Below, one piece after another: positions 2,775 to 21,938 of a stretch of DNA of 24,578 nt. The notes under the pieces were generated by a model. That model had not been told where the DNA came from and ran no database searches. It saw only the letters and a list, made by a program, of their open reading frames with translations. The DNA lies in IMG/VR virus record IMGVR_UViG_3300030618_000065, positions 1 to 24,578 of that record; one strand, given 5' to 3'. The stretch is from a virus. Every line of letters starts with the position of its first letter. Position 1 is the first letter of the stretch. The position numbers were made by a program, and so were the translations under genes.

Positions 2775-4310
2775 TTATCCATGAGCTTTTACATATTTGG
2801 AACCATTCCAAACTTCTAATTTGTCTTTACTGACATTTCTAGTACTTCTACTAGCTTCTTTTAAAGCATCTTCGTGATTTTTCGCACCAATCATTACATA
2901 ACCACCATATGCACTAGGATGTCGATAGCTAGTTAATCCAGATGCAGCCATTGGTCTATTTTCGTGTTCATGTGACTCTCTAATCCCATTTGCACGACGA
3001 TCCTCAAGCTCTTTCTTGATTTCCTTTGCACCATGTAGGAAGTGATCAAGTCTTAGCTTGTGCCATCCTTCAACAGTCTTTGGAAAGACTGGATGTGGGT
3101 CATTCAATGCCTTGTGATGCTCGATTGCCTTGGTAGCATAGTCCTTATACTTTCTGACGAGTGTAGCTCTTGGCATCTTAGAAAAGTCTTCTGAGAGAAA
3201 TTCGGATTCATTCAAGCCAGATGTGTCGGAACTGAGTTCATTGTGTTTAACAGTCTTTATATTTCCGTTTCCAAAATTAACAGTGTGTGCTTTATACGCT
3301 CTACCATCTGTATGTGACGTTAGGCTTTGATTGGCAGTGTGAATCTTTCCAATTGCACCAGATGGTGTATGTCTAACAGTCTGTCCAACTTGAAATTCGG
3401 ATTCATTCAATGCTTTATCAGAAGCATGCATGTCTCTGATTTGAGCAGCCATCTTATCTGCTTTTGATTTATTCATCCAAGAAAGAGTTTGTGGTATCTT
3501 CACTGCTGAATTGTGAACAACCAAAGCTTCGCTCTTTCCATTTTTTCTTAATGCACGTACTTCATGTCTAGGCCATCCATCTGCATTGGTGGTTCCATCT
3601 GGAATAGAATCAATCGAATGTACATCATTTGGAATCCACACATGAGCATGTGGTGCATCTGGAAACACATGTTTTGTATGAGTCTTAGATGTATGTTCTG
3701 GTGGAAATTTATAATTCTCAGATTCATTAATGTCTTTTCCAGTAATTATCCGATGCATTTCACCCTTTTCTTTATCATCACGAGCAATTGCCATTATATC
3801 ATGAGGGTGTTCGTTTCCACCGCGTTCTAATCGATCTTTAAATCTTTTCTGACGCATAATATGAAACCCACCTTCTTCTTTCCAATAATATGGTGATTCT
3901 TCACTCTCCCCTAAAAAATCATATCTAGGATCATCAGAATGAACAGGCATTTCTTCACTTCTATCCGCTGTATCATTCAATCCATTCTTCAAATTCTTAG
4001 GAATATTTGGATTCTCTGAAACGGCTGTTCTGACATGTTTGGACGTGTCTCCATGGAGATTCATGAGAGTGGTCAGATGAGTGTTTGGATGACAAGCAAC
4101 ACATTTACGGACAGCTGGATGTTCATGCATTGACATGACATTCAACATTCCGGCAGTACAGGAAGGGTGACATGCAACAGCAGCAACAGTCGTATGCTGT
4201 TTGCTCTTCATGAGTTCTTTCAATTTAGAAACAGAAGTCTTTGGATCAGATGCAGCGTCAAACTCGGCTACATGATCTTCTAAGAGTTTTTCTCGTGTTG
4301 CGTCAGTCAT
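2775..4310 (-). CDS. Multidomain virion-like protein with leucine-rich-variant-type repeats, SH3-like segment and repeated ESE motifs
   Basis: Not a protein I can name. The start at 4310 (MTDATREKLL) has AGGAAAG 5 nt upstream; a longer in-frame ATG at 4352 lies inside the preceding gene. Residues about 42-111 hold repeats of the form VAxHPxxxxxxL / VRxxVxxNPNxPxxL, resembling LRV (variant leucine-rich) helical repeats. Residues about 307-358 (VGQTVRHTPSG, GKI, VNFGNGNIKTVKHNEL) look like a KOW/SH3-type barrel. A charged helical region follows, and the C-terminus (GGYVMIGAKNHEDALKEA, LEVWNG) is a small separate module. Modules are separated by LGESEE, INESEN, LNESEF and LNESEF at about residues 133, 194, 301 and 366, possibly prohead-protease sites. 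His is unusually frequent. It lies between the membrane protein and the lipoprotein. Confidence 0.65.
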   Translation of the reverse strand: MTDATREKLLEDHVAEFDAASDPKTSVSKLKELMKSKQHTTVAAVACHPSCTAGMLNVMSMHEHPAVRKCVACHPNTHLTTLMNLHGDTSKHVRTAVSENPNIPKNLKNGLNDTADRSEEMPVHSDDPRYDFLGESEESPYYWKEEGGFHIMRQKRFKDRLERGGNEHPHDIMAIARDDKEKGEMHRIITGKDINESENYKFPPEHTSKTHTKHVFPDAPHAHVWIPNDVHSIDSIPDGTTNADGWPRHEVRALRKNGKSEALVVHNSAVKIPQTLSWMNKSKADKMAAQIRDMHASDKALNESEFQVGQTVRHTPSGAIGKIHTANQSLTSHTDGRAYKAHTVNFGNGNIKTVKHNELSSDTSGLNESEFLSEDFSKMPRATLVRKYKDYATKAIEHHKALNDPHPVFPKTVEGWHKLRLDHFLHGAKEIKKELEDRRANGIRESHEHENRPMAASGLTSYRHPSAYGGYVMIGAKNHEDALKEASRSTRNVSKDKLEVWNGSKYVKAHG

Positions 4311-4312
4311 CT

Positions 4313-4813
4313 TTACTTTCCTGTTGATGTTACTGGACTTGACACACCACATACTGTGGGATATGTCTTGTCTCTATTGGCTGGTATTTCTGTCAACTGT
4401 TCGATACAAAACAGTTGCTGCTTCAATTCAGTATTCACATAAATGGTCTTTTGTTGTGGTGTCTTTAATGCTTTCAATGACACCACAAAATTTGTATTCA
4501 TCTGTGAAATCTTGGTCTGTAAGGTATTTAATTGATCGTTGATGGCACTTCTGGCAGCATCAGCTTCCTGAACCTTACTAAGAACATTGGTCACATCAGT
4601 CTGAAGTCCTGTAATCTGACCGGCCTGTTCACGATTGGCTTCCTGCATCTGTCCAATCTGAACTTGCTGAGCCTTGACTTCTGATTCCATATGCTCATAG
4701 GTGAAATATAGACCAGCTGCCGCTGTTACTACAGCAACAGCAAGACCAATCTTGATGTATGTGGTGATACCTCCTGATGCTACAGATGACGTAATTGAGC
4801 TTAAAATTCCCAT
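4313..4813 (-). CDS. Inner-membrane-anchored coiled-coil protein, candidate i-spanin
   Basis: A short N-terminus is followed by one hydrophobic helix (about residues 19-38, KIGLAVAVVTAAAGLYFTY). A long heptad-like, Gln/Ala-rich stretch (about 42-110) is probably a periplasmic coiled coil. The end is non-helical with Cys136 and Cys155 and a Ser/Thr/Pro tail. This layout (N-terminal anchor, coiled coil, C-terminal cysteines) is that of phage i-spanins such as Rz, which span the periplasm with a lipoprotein partner and fuse the membranes at lysis. A candidate partner is the lipoprotein at 2435-2770. The stop is 2 nt before the next gene's start. A virion or tail membrane protein is an alternative. 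Confidence 0.6.
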   Translation of the reverse strand: MGILSSITSSVASGGITTYIKIGLAVAVVTAAAGLYFTYEHMESEVKAQQVQIGQMQEANREQAGQITGLQTDVTNVLSKVQEADAARSAINDQLNTLQTKISQMNTNFVVSLKALKTPQQKTIYVNTELKQQLFCIEQLTEIPANRDKTYPTVCGVSSPVTSTGK

Positions 4814-5847: not shown

Positions 5848-5927
5848 TTTCCCTAAATAAGTAATGCCTATCGCGTGCTACCAACACCATAGGCTCTACA
5901 AATCACAGTTTAAGGAGATTGCAGCGC
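5848..5927 (+). promoter_or_regulatory. Leader of homing-endonuclease cassette 1, with late-promoter-like TAAATA box
   Basis: The leader begins CCCTAAATAAGTA, near the T4 late-promoter box TATAAATA, and ends with the ribosome site TAAGGAGAT followed by GCAGC and ATGAATATTTAT. The leader of cassette 2 (8374-8451) has the same order: TTAAATAA, a TCGCG element about 20 nt further on, TAAGGAGAT and ATGAATATTTAT. The shared leader suggests the promoter travels with the endonuclease gene. Promoter activity is inferred from the box only. Confidence 0.5.
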
Positions 5928-6581
5928 ATGAATATTTATGTACACAAAATTCAATCCACCGCTTTACCAAACAAATACACAAAATGGTATTGTTCTTTGG
6001 TTGAGAAGTGTTTGAATAGGATAAAACCAATTGGTTATACTGAAAAGCATCACATACTCCCAAAGTGTTTTAAGTTGGGTGGATTGTCTGATAAAGAAAA
6101 TATTGTTGTTTTCACAGCTAGAGAACACTTTATTGCTCATCTCTTACTATGTAGAATGTTTATTGCAAAGAAGAAACAACAAATGTGGTTGGCAATAGGT
6201 GCATTCACAAGCTTTAAAAGAAATAGAAAGTTAACTTCAAGACAATTCGATGTAGCTAGAAATGCTTCAAGTTTTGGTAAAATTGGTGTTAAGAGAAGTG
6301 ATGAGTTTAGAAAGAGTCTATCTAGAACAAAGAAAGGAAAGCCGGGAATACCCAGAACACCAGAAACTAAAGAAAAATTGCGTATAGTTAATCTAGGTAA
6401 AGTGCGTGGAAAACAATCACCTGAATTGGTTGAACGCAGAGCCAAGATGACTAGAGGTAAGCGTATAGGGCCACAACCAAAAATAACATGCCCACACTGC
6501 GGCAAAGTTGGTGGTCTTAATAATATGAAACGTTGGCATTTTGAAAATTGCAAACTGATTCACATTAATACAGTGTCTTAA
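5928..6581 (+). CDS. HNH homing endonuclease 1 (free-standing)
   Basis: Probably cleaves an endonuclease-free allele so that its own gene spreads by recombination. The HNH core is EKHHILPK (His41, His42), Asn58 and FTAREHFIAH (His67, His71). After it come NUMOD3-like repeats (KRSDEFRKSLSRTKKGK; PETKEKLRIVNLGK), which bind DNA. A C-terminal zinc finger uses CPHC (188-191), His204 and Cys208. I chose the ATG at 5928, 10 nt after AAGGAG; a TTG three codons upstream would overlap the ribosome site. The gene runs against its neighbours, and its stop overlaps the stop of the ParB-like gene by 4 bp. A paralogue lies at 8452-9158; 6110-6140 and 8660-8690 are identical over 31 nt. Confidence 0.9.
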   Translation: MNIYVHKIQSTALPNKYTKWYCSLVEKCLNRIKPIGYTEKHHILPKCFKLGGLSDKENIVVFTAREHFIAHLLLCRMFIAKKKQQMWLAIGAFTSFKRNRKLTSRQFDVARNASSFGKIGVKRSDEFRKSLSRTKKGKPGIPRTPETKEKLRIVNLGKVRGKQSPELVERRAKMTRGKRIGPQPKITCPHCGKVGGLNNMKRWHFENCKLIHINTVS

Positions 6582-8359
6582 ACCGTTGGTGTATATGTAC
6601 CATCACCAGAAAGTCCCGGATTAACACTCACTGCTTTTCCTGCACCACCACCGTCAACATCCATTTCGTCTTCGTCAGAAAGTTGAGGTTTTCCATCCTT
6701 ACCACTCTGGTAACCACCAGAAATATGATCACGCTTTGCATTCTTCTCAGTCGCATTCGTCTTTGATTTGATCTTAGACTTCTTCTGAATTGCTGCCTCA
6801 AAGATCATGTCCATATTCTCATCTTCTCTCAGTGCAGAAGTGTGAGCAAATGCCCAGTCACGAATTTTCTTGAATGATCGAGAGTTCTTCTGACAGGCAT
6901 TCTCAATCTTTTTCTGATTTGGTTCACTCAGATTCTTGTGAATGTGAACAATAGCATGAGCAGACTTGACATCAATTCTTGCTGATTTTCCATCCTTGAA
7001 TATGACCTTGTCTGGCGAAGAGGAACGAGCAATCTTCTTTAAGGTTTTGAAAGGATGAACCCATTCGACTTCATCTAAGGTTTTTGTTTTTTCTTCATTC
7101 ACATGACCCTTATATCCATGTATTTCACTTGGTGCATTGAATACCCAAGCCTTTGGTTTAATACCTAGAGAATGAAGTGTTGATAAACGAGTATTACCAC
7201 CAACCAATTCATGAGTGCCATCCTTATGTCGCATAACAATTGGCATTTCCATTGGTCCTTTCTTTTTCAATATGTTGAAAATGTGTTGAATGGTACTATG
7301 TCTATTGTCACCAAAATCAAGGCCCGGTCTAGCGAAATGATGCATTAAATCACGATGAGAATGAATATCACCAGCGTCTGTATTTTGCATAGAGGTGATA
7401 TGATGAGGTTCTAGGTCTGTTGGCTTACCAGTTGAATAAGCTTTATAAAGAGAATTTGCTTTGGTTCCATAATGTTGTGCAACACGAGATAGTTCTCCCT
7501 GTTCACTTCTAAAATTTGATTTAACCCAATTGTCGTGTTCAAAAATCTCTCCACCATCAACTTCACGATACTTACGTCTAGTCTGAGCACCATGAGTGAC
7601 AACACGAACAGGACGCTTGAAGTTTCTTTTTGGTCTACTCTTCTCTGTTGTGATCTGGATAGCTTCAGTTAGTACAGCATTAACTGACTCAAAAGCAATT
7701 CCAGAATCTTCAGAAACAAATCTAGCTACTTCATCTTCTGAAACACCACTCTTCAGACCTTCAAGAATAAACTTGAGAATGGTCTTGACTTCTGATTCAG
7801 ATAGTCCATCAGAACCGGGATCGGCAGTCGTTGTCTTTGGCGTACTAGGATCATTTACTTCTGTTGGTCTCTTGTCTTGACCATCTAGAATCTTCAAAAT
7901 TTGAGAGAATGGAAGATTGATCTGGTCACAGAGAACAGACTTATCACCCATGTTATAGGCAGCAAGCCATCTGTGATGTCCATCTACGATAGTTTGATCC
8001 CTAGAAATTACAATTGGATGTACGCATGTACATGGTGATATTGAACATCCTTCTTTATGTGGTGTGTCTATAAATTTTAAAACTTTATCTTCATCAAAAC
8101 GATCAATGCTTGGAACCAATGTAGAAGGTTTGTTGGTGATACGTTCAATAACGATTCCAGCATTTCTCAGTGTATCTAGATTAATACCACTAACCTGACC
8201 ATCTTTGTGAAGTGACTGACTGAGGTGATAATCAGCTTTTGATATTGTTGATGGATACATGATCTTATGATCAGATTCTTCCAAAAATCTAAATGTCTCC
8301 ATAGCTTTTTGGGTATTAGCATAGAAATCTTTTAAGCTTGTTGTATTTATATTATCCAT
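6578..8359 (-). CDS. Protein with two ParB/sulfiredoxin-fold domains
   Basis: Two segments carry the ParB/Srx signature. The first, at about residues 112-160, has HPIVISRD followed by VDGHHRWLAAYNMG. The second, at about 368-408, has PIVMRHKDG, then ELVGGNTRLSTLHSLGIKPKAWV. In known families this fold binds or hydrolyses nucleotides (ParB CTPase, sulfiredoxin ATPase, some nucleases). The linker between them contains GLSESEVKTIL (residue 185 on), like the ESE motifs of the 2775-4310 protein, and a Lys/Arg-rich stretch at 238-265. The tail (about 540-593) is acidic and Gly-rich. It lies between the two endonuclease cassettes and ends in overlapping stops with cassette 1. The AAGGA upstream is about 15 nt from the ATG, unusually far. 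A packaged virion protein or DNA-modifying enzyme are both possible; the substrate is unknown. Confidence 0.72.
   Translation of the reverse strand: MDNINTTSLKDFYANTQKAMETFRFLEESDHKIMYPSTISKADYHLSQSLHKDGQVSGINLDTLRNAGIVIERITNKPSTLVPSIDRFDEDKVLKFIDTPHKEGCSISPCTCVHPIVISRDQTIVDGHHRWLAAYNMGDKSVLCDQINLPFSQILKILDGQDKRPTEVNDPSTPKTTTADPGSDGLSESEVKTILKFILEGLKSGVSEDEVARFVSEDSGIAFESVNAVLTEAIQITTEKSRPKRNFKRPVRVVTHGAQTRRKYREVDGGEIFEHDNWVKSNFRSEQGELSRVAQHYGTKANSLYKAYSTGKPTDLEPHHITSMQNTDAGDIHSHRDLMHHFARPGLDFGDNRHSTIQHIFNILKKKGPMEMPIVMRHKDGTHELVGGNTRLSTLHSLGIKPKAWVFNAPSEIHGYKGHVNEEKTKTLDEVEWVHPFKTLKKIARSSSPDKVIFKDGKSARIDVKSAHAIVHIHKNLSEPNQKKIENACQKNSRSFKKIRDWAFAHTSALREDENMDMIFEAAIQKKSKIKSKTNATEKNAKRDHISGGYQSGKDGKPQLSDEDEMDVDGGGAGKAVSVNPGLSGDGTYTPTV
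8344..8351 (-). promoter_or_regulatory. Perfect T4-type late promoter box TATAAATA, inside the start of the ParB-like gene
   Basis: On the minus strand the sequence reads TATAAATA, the exact T4 late-promoter core, at codons 3-6 of the ParB-like gene (ATG at 8359). If used, transcription would begin inside the annotated reading frame, and translation would need a later start such as the Met at residue 20. A chance match in AT-rich coding sequence is quite possible. Confidence 0.25.
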
Positions 8360-8373
8360 TGAACTATTTAATA

Positions 8374-8451
8374 TTCCTTAAATAAAAGTACGTTTCGCGG
8401 TCTGCAAACCCAAACGTCCTACGCACACTTCTTAAGGAGATACGCAGCTTC
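8374..8451 (+). promoter_or_regulatory. Leader of homing-endonuclease cassette 2
   Basis: Counterpart of the cassette 1 leader: TTCCTTAAATAAAAGTA, then TTTCGCGG, then CTTAAGGAGAT, CGCAGC and ATGAATATTTAT. It also contains an ACGTTT...AAACGT inverted pair. The TTAAATAA box resembles a T4 late promoter. The leader starts about 15 bp from the divergent start of the ParB-like gene. Confidence 0.5.
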
Positions 8452-9158
8452 ATGAATATTTATACAGAACAACTTCGATCTATTGCTCTACCCAATAAGT
8501 ATACAAATTGGTATTTTAATTTAGTCGAGAAGGCTCAAAATAGAGCATCTAGAAAGATTATAGCAAATGCTTTTTTCCAGAAGGATACACAGAAGAACAC
8601 CATATTCTTCCGAAAGATTTTGAACTTGGTGGCGTTAAAGATAAAGAAAATTTTACATATTTCACAGCTAGAGAACACTTTATTGCTCATAGATTACTAT
8701 ATAAAATGTTTATTGGGTCAAAATTTGAAAATACAACACGCATGGCAATAGCTGCAATGGGACGGAATAAAAAGCTTCGTAAGTTAACATCTAAACAATA
8801 TGCTATATCTAGAAAAGCTTATTCTGATTCTAGACGTGGAAAGAAACATTCAGATGAAGCCCGTAAAAATATGTCAACTTCTCAAAGAAATAGTGAAACA
8901 CGTAAAATAGTAGATTTTAATCATCGTGGACGAGATATGAGCATACAAACAGAAGCTGCTCGTCTTGTCAACAAAGGCACAAAACAAACCGAAGAATTTA
9001 AAGAAAAAAGATTAAAAGCATTAAGAGAAAGTCCAAACCTGATTATTGCAACAGAAAAGAGAAAAGGAATTCTACCTCTTGGTTTAAATAAGAAAATAGA
9101 ATGCCCTGTGTGCTATAAAATATGCACACCATCATCTTTAGTAACGCACAAACACTAA
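8452..9158 (+). pseudogene. HNH homing endonuclease 2, split by a -1 frameshift (decayed, or read through a slippery site)
   Basis: A paralogue of endonuclease 1. The first frame starts MNIYTEQLRSIALPNKYTNWY, nearly the N-terminus of its sibling, and reads to 8751. The HNH core (GYTEEHHILPKDFELGG, then FTAREHFIAHRLLYKMF), NUMOD3-like repeats and a C-terminal CPVC...HKH zinc finger lie in the -1 frame. A TAG at 8550-8552 closes that frame upstream, so the shift must fall between there and about 8580. Exactly there lies TTTTTTC (8571-8577), a T_TTT_TTC heptamer in the correct phase. Slippage there would give a 235-residue protein; loss of one T from a run of seven would give the same reading. 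The stop overlaps the helicase stop by 4 bp. I cannot tell decay, sequencing error and programmed frameshifting apart. Confidence 0.75.
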
Positions 9159-12389: not shown

Positions 12390-12393
12390 ATAT

Positions 12394-12414
12394 CATGGTC
12401 CACACTCGACCATG
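12394..12414 (+). promoter_or_regulatory. Perfect 7-bp hairpin immediately before a start codon
   Basis: CATGGTC, a 7-nt loop CACACTC, then GACCATG, followed by AATA and the ATG of the tail-tube-like gene. The hairpin occupies the place where a ribosome site would lie, and none is visible elsewhere. It may block initiation on read-through transcripts. Confidence 0.5.
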
Positions 12415-12418
12415 AATA

Positions 12419-12931
12419 ATGTCAACGCCACCATCAGTTTTTGTACCTACTAGCACACAAGATGCCAACAGCTTTCTCCTGAAGAGCAAAGCTGTCTTGA
12501 CTATTGATGCAATCGAGAGAATGCAACTCTATTGCACTCGGTTCAATCTTCCGACTGTTTCTACCCGATCAGTTCCGGTACCAACACCATTTGCTACTCT
12601 AAAAATGCAAGGCGATCATATCGTCTATGAAGACCTGATTGTTGAATTTCTCGTCAGACAAGACCTTTCAAATTGGATCATCCTACAAGAATGGTTGGTT
12701 GGACTGACTCGTCCTGAAAGCTTCAAACAAGCTGAAGATAGGGAACTCACCTATAGTGATGGAACTCTCTATATCATGGATGCTAGCAACAATGTCACCA
12801 ACACATTTCGATTCATCAATCTCTGTATCGAACAACTGCACGGAATTGAATTTGAAGTTCAAAGTGATCCCGATCCAATCAAAACCAATGTAATCTTTAC
12901 TTACGATTACTACAAAAGATCAAAGTCCTGA
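12419..12931 (+). CDS. Tail-tube-family protein (T4 gp19/gp54-like), tentative
   Basis: The pattern fits the contractile-tail tube fold: FNLPTVST, then VPTPFATLKMQGDHIVYEDL, EFLVRQDLSNWI, LQEWLVGLTRPES and a C-terminal strand IFTYDYYKRS. T4 gp19 likewise has LP..., a G-D-xx-F/YEDL strand, a D...W segment and a final LDYW/YDYY strand. It could be the tube initiator (gp54-like) or another tube-related protein rather than the major tube subunit. In T4, uvsY also adjoins baseplate genes (25, 26, later 54), which fits. The start follows a hairpin (12394-12414), and no ribosome site is obvious. Confidence 0.5.
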   Translation: MSTPPSVFVPTSTQDANSFLLKSKAVLTIDAIERMQLYCTRFNLPTVSTRSVPVPTPFATLKMQGDHIVYEDLIVEFLVRQDLSNWIILQEWLVGLTRPESFKQAEDRELTYSDGTLYIMDASNNVTNTFRFINLCIEQLHGIEFEVQSDPDPIKTNVIFTYDYYKRSKS

Positions 12932-12973: not shown

Positions 12974-13411
12974 ATGGCATCCTATCAAGAAATTGAAGAG
13001 CTTTGGACTGCGGATTGTGAGATAAATCCAATCCAGCTAGGCGAAGAAGCTGCAAAAATTCCAAAGCTTCATAATAGATATTACTCACTCTATGTCAAAG
13101 AGCTTTTTGTTCTAAGAAAACAAGAAGCCGAGATGAAGACATTGGAAAGGAATCTATGGCTCTACTATTCTGGATCGATAACCAGATCGGAACTTTTAGA
13201 CCTTGGGTGGAATGATCTAGACCTAAAAATCCTGAAGACAGATGTCGCCAAGTTCATTGATTCTGATCAGAAAATGATAGAAATGAAGCTTAAATACTCA
13301 GTACAGGATGAGAAATGTTCTTTCATCAAAAGTATCTTGGCTGAAGTCGGAAGACGTAGTTATATCATCAGACAGATGATCGATTGGGCCAAGTTCCAAG
13401 CTGGTGCCTAA
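12974..13411 (+). CDS. uvsY: Recombination mediator UvsY
   Basis: UvsY loads the UvsX recombinase onto gp32-coated ssDNA. The pattern fits T4 UvsY: EIEELWTADCEINPIQLGEEAAKIPKLHNRY in outline, the conserved LWLYYSGSIT (T4 DYYSG), a D..KFIDSDQKM segment, and the final RSYIIRQMIDWAKFQAG (T4 ending HIQDMRAFEAGK). At 145 residues it is slightly longer than the 137 of T4. A TATAAT (12960-12965) lies just upstream, but TTGACA at 12948 is too close to be its -35. The gene is followed by the uvsW hairpin. Confidence 0.85.
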   Translation: MASYQEIEELWTADCEINPIQLGEEAAKIPKLHNRYYSLYVKELFVLRKQEAEMKTLERNLWLYYSGSITRSELLDLGWNDLDLKILKTDVAKFIDSDQKMIEMKLKYSVQDEKCSFIKSILAEVGRRSYIIRQMIDWAKFQAGA

Positions 13412-13412
13412 A

Positions 13413-13445
13413 ATATTAGGCATTAAGTCACATTGAGCCTAATAT
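13413..13445 (+). promoter_or_regulatory. Perfect 9-bp hairpin abutting the uvsW start codon
   Basis: ATATTAGGC (13413-13421) and GCCTAATAT (13437-13445) are exact complements with a 15-nt loop. The ATG of uvsW begins at 13447. The only SD-like bases (GAG, 13435-13437) fall at the loop/stem edge. The hairpin would hinder ribosome binding. No T-run follows, so it is not a typical terminator. Confidence 0.6.
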
Positions 13446-13446
13446 C

Positions 13447-14916
13447 ATGCATGTTTTACTATATCCAATTGACCAAACCACCATAAAAATTGACACTGAT
13501 GAATCGGTGTTGATGGAATTGAATGATCGGTATTCATTCTTTGTGCACGGTCATATGTTTTCCCCGTTATATAAGAATCATATCTGGGATGGAAAGAAGA
13601 GATTAATTTCTCTAAAATATAAAACTATCCAGAGAGGGCTTCTAGAAGACCTTGTAGCTTACTGCGAGTCTCAGGGATACACGACTTCATTCAGTGATGC
13701 AGAAAGCCCACAAAGCGCACCACAGAGCCTCACAATCGAATCTTTCCTTGAAGGACTGACTCTTCCACACATCCCACATGATTTTCAGGTAGAAGCTCTA
13801 AAGAATATAGTTTTTTCCAATGGACGAAAAATCATCGAATCAGCTACTGGAAGTGGAAAGAGCTTGATTCAATATTTGATTGTAATGTATGCACTTCAAT
13901 CGAACTGGTGTGAGAAAATCTTGATTGTCGTTCCGACAACAATGCTTGTTGATCAGCTGACAGACGATTTTTGTGAGTATGGAGAAAATGATCCAAATTG
14001 GAATCGAAATTTCGTTCACAAAATCTATGCTGGTGAAGATAAACAATCAGATGCACCAATAACGATTTCAACTTGGCAAAGCTTGTATGCATTGGACGAA
14101 CCTTATTTTCACCAATACGATGGAATATTAGTTGACGAAGTGCATGAAGGAAAATCTGATTCAATCACTAAAATCGTCTCTTCATGTATTAATGCCCACT
14201 TGAGAGTAGGTGCTACTGGAACATTGGATGACGTGAAATTACATCGTCTCATTCTCCAAGGTCTTTTTGGAAGTGTAATAAAAGTCTCATCAGCTGCAGA
14301 ACTAATGGAAAGGAAGATTCTAGCACAGCTGACAGTGAAGTGTATTACCCTCAAATACCAAGATGAGGATGAGTGCAAGCTCGTTCGAAAAATGTCCTAT
14401 GATCAAGAACTGGATTACATTGTCGAACTGGAAAAGAGAAACTTATTCGTCTCAAAATTGGCTTCTAACCTGAAGGGTAACAAACTAATCCTTGTGACTA
14501 AGATCGAACATGGTAACAGGCTAATAGAAGCTCTTTCTGGATATGAAGGTCCAGTTCATTTTATCAATGGAAAAATGAAGCCTGAAAAACGATCTGAAAT
14601 CAGAAAAGCTTGTGAGTTATCTGACAACATGGTCATCATAGCCACCTACAAGACTTTTCAACTGGGTGTGAATATTGTTAATCTGGATCATGTCATCTTT
14701 GCATCACCATCCAAATCCAAGACCAGAGTGCTTCAGAGCATTGGAAGAACAGTCAGAAGGAGTGCTGAGAAAGTAGAAGCTTCTGCTTATGACATCGTTG
14801 ATGATTTTACTGGGATCAGAAAACGTCAGAACTATCTCCTGAAGCACTTTTTAGAACGATTTAAATACTATTGTGAAGAGAATTTTAATGTTGTTCAACA
14901 TGAGATTAAGTTCTAA
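13447..14916 (+). CDS. uvsW: RNA-DNA and recombination helicase UvsW
   Basis: An SF2 helicase that unwinds R-loops at origins, branch-migrates recombination intermediates and shifts the phage from origin-dependent to recombination-dependent replication. Features in order: N-terminal substrate domain (1-100, with MFSPLYKNHIWDGKKRL), Q-like FQVEAL (113-118), Walker A SATGSGKS (132-139), motif Ia VVPTTMLVDQ, DEVH (230-233), GATGT (255-259, motif III), TYKTFQLGVNI (400-410) and motif VI QSIGRTVRR (430-438). Its 489 residues fit T4 UvsW (503). It lies directly after uvsY, with a hairpin at its start that may delay its translation; UvsW is a late protein in T4. Confidence 0.93.
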   Translation: MHVLLYPIDQTTIKIDTDESVLMELNDRYSFFVHGHMFSPLYKNHIWDGKKRLISLKYKTIQRGLLEDLVAYCESQGYTTSFSDAESPQSAPQSLTIESFLEGLTLPHIPHDFQVEALKNIVFSNGRKIIESATGSGKSLIQYLIVMYALQSNWCEKILIVVPTTMLVDQLTDDFCEYGENDPNWNRNFVHKIYAGEDKQSDAPITISTWQSLYALDEPYFHQYDGILVDEVHEGKSDSITKIVSSCINAHLRVGATGTLDDVKLHRLILQGLFGSVIKVSSAAELMERKILAQLTVKCITLKYQDEDECKLVRKMSYDQELDYIVELEKRNLFVSKLASNLKGNKLILVTKIEHGNRLIEALSGYEGPVHFINGKMKPEKRSEIRKACELSDNMVIIATYKTFQLGVNIVNLDHVIFASPSKSKTRVLQSIGRTVRRSAEKVEASAYDIVDDFTGIRKRQNYLLKHFLERFKYYCEENFNVVQHEIKF

Positions 14917-14919
14917 ATT

Positions 14920-15378
14920 ATGAATGAAGAAGGTGAAAAGCTGACTAGTGAGATATTCATTACTATGGATGTCTGTGCTCAGAATGATATCGAATGTGGA
15001 TTAGTCAATCCTATGGATCACTTCTGGGATGTCTATATCCTGAGAACAAAAATGGGTCAAATGATCATTACTATGATGACTGTTGATTCTGATCCATTGA
15101 GTAAGAACATGCTACTACAGCTACCGATAGTCTTTGAGATAAAATCTGATACTTCTGTTTCTATGGTTCGCTATGGGATTCTTAGTTCTGATCTATTTTA
15201 CTACATTCCGAAAGATATGATCATAGGAGTACATCAACCATCCACAGAAGCTAGAAAGCTCTATGAGCATGGACTTGAAATCTACTATAAGGATACAGAA
15301 GAAGAGAAACCTAAGTCCTCACTCAATCAAGCTATGTTCGGAATTGAAGACGATTTAAAATCCCAACAGTCCAAATGA
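14920..15378 (+). CDS. Hypothetical protein after uvsW
   Basis: Function not recognised. 152 residues, probably beta-rich (SEIFITMDVCAQNDIECG; DVYILRTKMGQMIITMMTV; LPIVFEIKSDTSVSMVRYG), with a charged C-terminal tail ending NQAMFGIEDDLKSQQSK. The tail looks like a short interaction peptide. It starts 3 bp after the uvsW stop, so it is probably in the same transcript. Its TGA is also the first base triplet of the first direct repeat of the structured non-coding region. Confidence 0.6.
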   Translation: MNEEGEKLTSEIFITMDVCAQNDIECGLVNPMDHFWDVYILRTKMGQMIITMMTVDSDPLSKNMLLQLPIVFEIKSDTSVSMVRYGILSSDLFYYIPKDMIIGVHQPSTEARKLYEHGLEIYYKDTEEEKPKSSLNQAMFGIEDDLKSQQSK

Positions 15379-15440
15379 AAACATTTATTTCTACGTGAAA
15401 ACATTTACAAATACTTATATTCATTTGAAAGTACTTACAA
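15376..15440 (+). repeat. Three imperfect 15-bp direct repeats, spaced 20 and 30 bp
   Basis: TGAAAACATTTATTT (15376), TGAAAACATTTACAA (15396) and TGAAAGTACTTACAA (15426). Neighbouring copies match at 12 of 15 positions. The 20- and 30-bp spacings are multiples of about one DNA turn (10-10.5 bp), so bound proteins would sit on one face. The block is very AT-rich, suiting an iteron or unwinding element. Confidence 0.6.
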
Positions 15441-15460
15441 GTTACTATGGATTCCTAGTG

Positions 15461-15560
15461 ATGGGACTACGTCCCATGCGACTACGTCGCGGCCTCTTTA
15501 ACTATCCCTATGAATCTACAGCCTTCCGCAGGAAGCTGTTGGGCCGAGTCGCATTCCCAT
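15461..15560. repeat. Two tandem hairpins with an alternative long-range stem
   Basis: Fold A has two abutting perfect hairpins with the same TAC loop: ATGGGAC/GTCCCAT (15461-15477) and GCGAC/GTCGC (15478-15490). Fold B uses the right arm 15542-15560, which is exactly complementary over 19 bases to three pieces of the left arm: 15461-15466, 15476-15483 and 15490-15494. It skips 15467-15475 and 15484-15489. Folds A and B use the same bases and exclude each other. Position and pairings were checked base by base. Confidence 0.75.
15518..15539. repeat. Stable hairpin with a GCA loop
   Basis: ACAG-C-CTTCC, loop GCA, GGAAG-CTGT: nine base pairs with one bulged C. A GNA triloop closed by a C-G pair is known to be unusually stable in single-stranded DNA. 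It lies inside the long-range stem 15461-15560. Confidence 0.65.
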
Positions 15561-15581
15561 GATTCATTTATGCCGTTTTGG

Positions 15582-15653
15582 TTCAGGATGTCAAGTTTTC
15601 TTCAATTTTGCGCAAAATAATCTGACGAACGGTAAAAGCTTGAACATCCTGAA
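15582..15653. repeat. Long inverted repeat around a 14-bp palindrome
   Basis: TTCAGGATGTCAAGTTTT (15582-15599) pairs with AAAAGCTTGAACATCCTGAA (15634-15653), with two single-base bulges. The loop holds the perfect palindrome ATTTTGCGCAAAAT (15605-15618). A competing pairing, CCGTT (15573-15577) with AACGG (15628-15632) plus TCAG (15583-15586) with CTGA (15622-15625), is also possible. Confidence 0.7.
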
Positions 15654-15695
15654 TCCACATGTAATACTAGTTCACCACTTAAACCAAGTAACAAA

Positions 15696-15899
15696 ATGAC
15701 TGAAGATAAACGAAACACACTCGAAAAGATTGGTGCCATATATACCACCGGGATTGAAGTCCTGAAAGATGATCATGGTGGATATTACGCTGGTAAGGTC
15801 TTGAAGAGTCCTATAGGCAAGAACAATGTTGCCATGTCCAAATCCTTCAAGACGAGGAAGGAAGCACAAGATATCATTCCATTGGTGAACCTAGCATGA
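15696..15899 (+). CDS. Small hypothetical protein, 67 residues
   Basis: Function not recognised. It has a short helix (EDKRNTLEKIGAIY), a beta-like Gly/Tyr segment (GGYYAGKVL) and a basic part SFKTRKEAQDII reminiscent of small phage proteins with an AP2-like or single-sheet fold. No good ribosome site is seen (CAAGTAAC only), and it follows the structured region, which may therefore control it. The stop overlaps the next start (ATGA). Confidence 0.5.
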   Translation: MTEDKRNTLEKIGAIYTTGIEVLKDDHGGYYAGKVLKSPIGKNNVAMSKSFKTRKEAQDIIPLVNLA

Positions 15900-16087
15900 A
15901 GATTAATTTCAGAAATATATTCGTATTCTCATCCATCGCTTATTTGTTTGGATATGCCATGGGCCATGTTATGAAAGCATTGGATACACCACTAATTAGC
16001 ATAGTGATTGTGATTGTACTACAAGCATTTATAGTAACCAAATTTTTCATTCCAAAACTTCCATTCACAACAGAACTCGATAAATAA
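15896..16087 (+). CDS. Small membrane protein, two helices
   Basis: 63 residues with two hydrophobic helices (about 8-27, IFVFSSIAYLFGYAMGH; and 32-53, PLISIVIVIVLQAFIVTKFF) and a short charged tail. It probably sits in the host inner membrane. It is coupled to the previous gene by an ATGA overlap and followed 4 bp later by another two-helix protein. A role in host takeover, lysis control or superinfection exclusion is possible; the sequence alone does not decide. Confidence 0.55.
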   Translation: MKINFRNIFVFSSIAYLFGYAMGHVMKALDTPLISIVIVIVLQAFIVTKFFIPKLPFTTELDK

Positions 16088-21894: not shown

Positions 21895-21927
21895 AAAGCC
21901 GGGATGAAATATTCCCGGCTTTTCTTT
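21895..21927 (+). terminator. Intrinsic terminator after gene 32
   Basis: AAAGCCGGGA (21895-21904) pairs with TCCCGGCTTT (21913-21922) around an 8-nt loop, followed by TTCTTTT. GC-rich perfect stem plus T-run: a classic rho-independent terminator closing the replication block. Confidence 0.9.
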
Positions 21928-21938
21928 TGGAGAATTTT

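Follow-up and report, generated by a model that had tools for sequence, protein, structure and literature searches.

Positions 15461-15560 of a divergent T4-like phage contain two abutting hairpins with the same loop, followed by a single arm that can pair with the 5' arms of both. This element is tentatively read as a structured non-coding leader or boundary RNA between the uvsY–uvsW–ORF152 operon and the next operon, with a likelihood that we place a little short of even. Arguing for this RNA reading are a GC island, overlapping ORFs that look non-coding, strong folding of the surrounding gap, a compensated base pair, the course of stepwise folding and a syntenic gap position. Arguing against it are the lack of a homologue, the modest folding score of the 111-nt element alone (z = -2.3), DNA folding that is equally unusual, the lack of a T tract and the weak structure of the corresponding gaps in relatives. 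The confidence that we attach to this reading overlaps with that attached to its rivals, and the levels need not add up to certainty.

Genomic setting of the uvsW boundary

The window, that is, the whole stretch of DNA analysed, is a viral record of 24,578 bases. The genes leading up to the element and the gap that contains it are as follows.

12419-12931: tail tube gene
12974-13411: UvsY gene
13447-14916: UvsW gene
14920-15378: 152-amino-acid ORF (ORF152), after uvsW
15379-15695: non-coding gap of 317 nt, 3' of ORF152

Of all gaps separating the listed genes between 1297 and 23994, this is the longest, and on its 3' side lie small ORFs, an RNase H-type 5'-3' exonuclease, a gp59-like helicase loader and a gp32-like protein. 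The GC fraction of 15461-15560 is 0.55 against 0.39 overall, which ranks it among the richest 0.3% of 100-nt windows and makes it the highest among all listed intergenic gaps. In AT-rich genomes, structured RNAs often form GC islands. RNA folding of the whole gap gives a z-score of -3.8 and beats 100 of 100 shuffles; DNA folding is just as unusual, with a z-score of -4.3 that beats all shuffles.

The features recognised in and at the edge of the gap, all on the + strand, are the following.

15376-15437, +: three iteron-like 12-bp direct repeats TGAAANNANTTA, starting at 15376, 15396 and 15426 (spacings of 20 and 30 bp)
15443-15448, +: possible -10 box TACTAT, 12 bp before hairpin 1, judged from sequence only
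15461-15477, +: hairpin 1, ATGGGAC-TAC-GTCCCAT, 7-bp stem, TAC loop (sequence and folding)
15478-15490, +: hairpin 2, GCGAC-TAC-GTCGC, 5-bp stem, TAC loop (sequence and folding)
15491-15494, +: GGCC, pairing with 15542-15545 in both folds (pairing probability 0.99)
15518-15539, +: apical GCA-loop hairpin, ACAGC(C)TTCC-GCA-GGAAGCTGT, 9 bp with one bulged C, present in both folds (pairing probability 0.99)
15542-15560, +: competing arm GGCCGAGTCGCATTCCCAT, the reverse complement of 15461-66, 15476-83 and 15490-94
15578-15656, +: second long stem of about 20 bp (TTCAGGATGT...ACATCCTGAA) enclosing the palindrome ATTTTGCGCAAAAT (folding)

Neither strand of the window has TGAAANNANTTA outside these three copies, and their triple-repeat score of 30 was reached by none of 500 shuffles of 15361-15460. 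A scan with the sigma-70 consensus did not report TACTAT at 15443-15448; a start about 7 nt downstream of this candidate box would make the transcript begin immediately ahead of hairpin 1. The region around the second long stem, 15566-15665, also folds strongly as RNA, with z-scores of -2.9 on the + strand and -3.3 on the - strand.

Hairpins, tandem repeat and competing arm

The original prediction described two abutting perfect hairpins sharing GAC-TAC-GTC and a 19-base arm complementary to three left-hand blocks, and both descriptions hold to the base. The hairpins occupy 15461-15477 and 15478-15490, and a script check of each pair showed that all 19 bases of 15542-15560 form Watson-Crick pairs with the three blocks, skipping 9 and 6 bases. 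The hairpins can also be written as a 15-nt tandem repeat, ATGGGACTACGTCCC (15461-15475) and ATGCGACTACGTCGC (15476-15490), in which 13 of 15 positions are identical. The sole two differences between the units compensate each other, being one swap from G-C to C-G in the second unit. The competing arm fits the variant base of each unit, with C15557 opposite G15464 and G15551 opposite C15479, so that both pairings are preserved in both units. The probability that two random differences in 15 positions would hit one of the five pairs and restore pairing is about 0.016 (5/105 x 1/3), and the swap is no more than suggestive. A single 15-nt hairpin unit was probably duplicated, and later compensated, to give the tandem hairpins; palindromic insertions into an older stem, as originally proposed, are one conceivable history, and duplication is at least as simple an account.

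The configuration is unusual, though less improbable than originally claimed. A 19/19 match with two gaps had been held to be very unlikely by chance, yet when dinucleotide shuffles of the whole window were searched for chains of at least three one-sided blocks totalling at least 19 pairs, such chains appeared in 4 of 60. Abutting hairpins alone occur on average 1.2 times per shuffle, and an abutting pair with stems of 7 and 5 bp was found in 22 of 150 shuffles. Abutting hairpins combined with a single downstream arm that matches both 5' arms over 6 nt or more each, a weaker demand than the real arm meets, were found in 4 of 4000 shuffles with both strands scanned, in a test that was devised after the feature was seen. 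These shuffles leave tandem duplication unmodelled, a route by which abutting hairpins would arise in one step. The pair at 15461-15490 is the only abutting hairpin pair in the window, and it has the competing arm.

Folding energies and order of folding

Calculated energies for the + strand RNA (111 nt) are -30.4 kcal/mol for the two hairpins with the GGCC stem and the GCA hairpin, -33.0 kcal/mol for the full long stem and -33.3 kcal/mol for a mixed fold of hairpin 1 and the inner long stem. The minimum, -35.9 kcal/mol, is the long stem with a short extension. The mutually exclusive pairings are thus of like stability, the alternative folds differing by about 3-6 kcal/mol. The DNA energies are -16.2 for the two hairpins, -18.0 for the long stem and -17.1 for the mixed fold; because these are also close, the energies do not decide between RNA and DNA. 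The earlier idea of a bistable element therefore stands as far as two competing pairings of close energy on either strand are concerned, whereas a simple two-state switch is unsupported because the mixed state matches the full long stem in stability.

Pairing probabilities are 0.23 for hairpin 1, 0.07 for hairpin 2, 0.77 for the outer arm and 0.93 for the inner long stem, and the minimum-energy fold with more flanking sequence retains hairpin 1. When the 3' end is extended stepwise, the local hairpins persist until 15547 and hairpin 2 is gone by 15555. In these models, sequential displacement with a neutral last step would describe the folding better than a two-state switch.

These calculations lead to a plausible sequence of events, in which transcription, the order of folding in the cell and any function are inferred. 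Transcription would run rightward through the element, making it either a 5' leader for the genes that follow or the 3' end of the uvsW message. Both TAC-loop hairpins are calculated to form as soon as they are made. The arm 15542-15560, on emerging, would invade hairpin 2 and then optionally hairpin 1, leaving a long stem with bulges and the GCA hairpin at its tip. Such a structure would probably serve to protect the transcript at the operon boundary, to process it or to set its pace. A role as a regulated, signal-responsive switch is unproven. There is at best a slim chance that the element represents something more novel, namely two tandem hairpins with identical loops unzipped successively by one downstream arm during transcription, which may act at an operon boundary or origin as a folding timer or a switch with three states and would have no homologue in known RNA families.

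Coding potential and known RNA classes

The gap was treated as non-coding. A 33-residue ORF (15461-15562) starts and finishes with the element, and the skips in the arm pairing are multiples of three; its codon usage (z = 0.3) is no better than that of shuffles, tblastn gave no match, and it was rejected as a gene. A 46-residue ORF (15559-15699) shares an ATGA overlap with the start of the next gene. It was likewise rejected, with a codon z-score of -0.5 and a score of -4.142 that falls below the first percentile of coding windows (-4.119); the other small ORFs have codon z-scores from 1.2 to 4.9. Since the 46-residue ORF is not coding-like, a switch masking its start codon was dropped.

Searches of the element with Rfam and ARAGORN gave no match to a tRNA, a tmRNA or a known RNA family. 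Within 15000-16000 there is no terminator-like site and no T run after a GC-rich hairpin, and because no T tract follows the element on its 3' side, it is not an ordinary intrinsic terminator. In a riboswitch or attenuator, one of the pairings would act as a terminator or hide a ribosome site; judged from that scan of 15000-16000 and from the non-coding look of the ORF starting at 15559, neither pairing does so here. A hammerhead-like CTGACGA at about 15623 was discarded, as inspection by eye gave no matching GAAA partner.

Relatives and syntenic gaps

No DNA relative of the gap was found in phages, plasmids or viral contigs, in collections that may lack very near records, the BLAST matches in phages and plasmids being at chance level, and an exact 20-mer of the element occurs in none of 84,980 species genomes. 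The GACTACGTC core has no exact copy elsewhere in the window. Two nearby copies of GACTACGTC occur in 39 viral contigs, all lacking the flanks of the element, and a mobile or repeated element was rejected. In L051, another viral contig, an iteron pair belongs to the duplicated start of a gene and is unrelated. The nearest relatives of UvsW reach about 42% identity, and three contigs of the same virus (L043, L044 and L135) end before the gap.

The order uvsY, uvsW, small ORF, gap and then late sigma factor is kept in Mosig and S-CRM01, and viral contig L002 shows like spacing with a downstream ORF that, read by eye, is gp55-like. By BLASTP, ORF152 is not detectably related to the ORFs that follow uvsW in L002 and S-CRM01; the Mosig sigma factor was compared with one downstream protein, and the two did not match. 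The synteny is therefore positional. In a rough survey of 44 relatives, in which the script-found gap contains genes at some loci, the syntenic gaps have a mean folding z-score of -1.1, with a quarter below -2. Structured gaps include those of L002 (z = -2.2) and L053 (z = -2.6), with sequences unrelated to the element. The median length of the relatives' gaps is about 108 nt, so that the present gap is longer than most, and direct repeats are no general feature of them. S-CRM01 and L002 carry short tandem hairpins near a like position, followed by T-rich stretches.

Individual gaps also have features of their own. At 4705-4735 of L002, GCC-TAC-GGC stands beside CGGC-AAA-GCCG in a syntenic gap with short tandem hairpins and T-rich stretches, and both kinds of feature also occur in the syntenic gap of L053 at 4745-4800. 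In viral contig L085 (approximately 2870-2960), the gap beyond uvsW and the ORF next to it is GC-rich and structured and seems to hold a tRNA-like GGCGGGCTTAGCTCAG....

Alternative explanations

The best rival is that the gap from 15376 to 15656 is a DNA site, most likely a T4-type replication origin, which we consider unlikely. The 12-bp repeats would bind an initiator, the promoter would give a primer RNA, and the palindromes would extrude or hold a strand open. This standing comes from T4, where oriE has evenly spaced 12-nt repeats, oriF lies at uvsY and UvsW removes oriF R-loops (PMC3016281). The clustered direct repeats seen here are a feature of oriE, not of all T4 origins. Their restriction to this gap, their spacings near whole helical turns, the DNA folding of the gap and its exceptional length are all consistent with an origin. 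On the other side, the cumulative GC skew has no turning point at the site, direct repeats are not general in syntenic gaps, the putative initiator protein has no candidate, and for the T4 iterons no association with oriE activity is established (PMC3016281).

A neutral origin of the element is also unlikely, at about one chance in several: tandem duplication and template-switch (fold-back) events in a neutral gap would have left a mutational by-product with no function. Fold-back synthesis is able to generate inverted repeats or perfect existing ones, and compensated changes would follow from it as well; the 13/15 identity of the units suggests duplication; no conservation is known. Neutral DNA tends to be lost from phage genomes, and this gap exceeds most of its counterparts in length and holds several independent features, which argues against such a history. 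Rather improbable is the proposal that the abutting inverted repeats are operators, half-sites of a dimeric repressor or activator lying 15 bp apart just downstream of a promoter. The near identity of the inverted repeats, their common centre and their position just after the possible -10 box would suit it, but it leaves the competing arm and the apical hairpin unexplained, DNA half-sites need no compensated change, and the exact GACTACGTC core is confined to this site in the window. We give about as little credence to the idea that the element ends transcription of the uvsW operon as a factor-dependent or atypical terminator. The position at an operon boundary and the tandem hairpins of S-CRM01 and L002 point in this direction; no T tract is present here, though this phage does carry a classical intrinsic terminator (AAAGCCGGGA..TCCCGGCTTTTCTTTT) at about 21896-21928, directly 3' of the gp32-like gene.

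Likeness to known systems

Among the nearest known counterparts of the element are attenuators and transcriptional riboswitch platforms that work by strand displacement, such as the yxjA purine (PMC9756952) and pfl ZTP (PMC10085676) platforms. In these, a downstream arm likewise competes with the 3' halves of earlier hairpins for their 5' arms, so that the order of synthesis matters. Unlike them, the element has no ligand-binding domain, no T tract, no masked start of a plausible gene and no Rfam match. Its position close to uvsY and uvsW resembles that of T4 oriF, or ori(uvsY), and the 12-bp direct repeats nearby match those of oriE in length (PMC3016281). Unlike T4 origins, the element is foldable and GC-rich, and an origin role here is putative. 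The operon-end hairpins of the T4-like phages S-CRM01 and L002 likewise occupy the gap beyond uvsW and the ORF that follows it; the element differs from them in having no sequence similarity to them, no T tract and a competing arm not seen in relatives.

If transcribed and functional, the element would be a compact natural case, from a lytic phage, in which duplicated hairpins undergo strand displacement one after the other, and the uvsW boundary would be a control or replication-start point in a T4-like lineage known here from metagenomes only. If it is neutral, tandem duplication and fold-back synthesis can mimic a convincing switch through mutation alone, which calls for caution in discovering RNAs from single sequences.

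Other features of the window

Short perfect hairpins fill two other gaps, CATGGTC..GACCATG just upstream of the tail tube gene (12390-12418) and ATATTAGGC..GCCTAATAT just upstream of uvsW (13412-13446). A duplicated stretch, 72-74% identical, lies at 5927-6165 and 8451-8715, at the starts of the ORFs 5919-6581 and 8452-8751, and the ORF at 8706-9158 has a weak NUMOD3 match below the cutoff; the two copies are perhaps relatives of homing endonucleases, the second being split across frames. On the - strand, 6578-8359 encodes a 593-residue protein with a weak ParB-like stretch, and 2775-4352 encodes a 525-residue protein with a leucine-rich-repeat-variant match.
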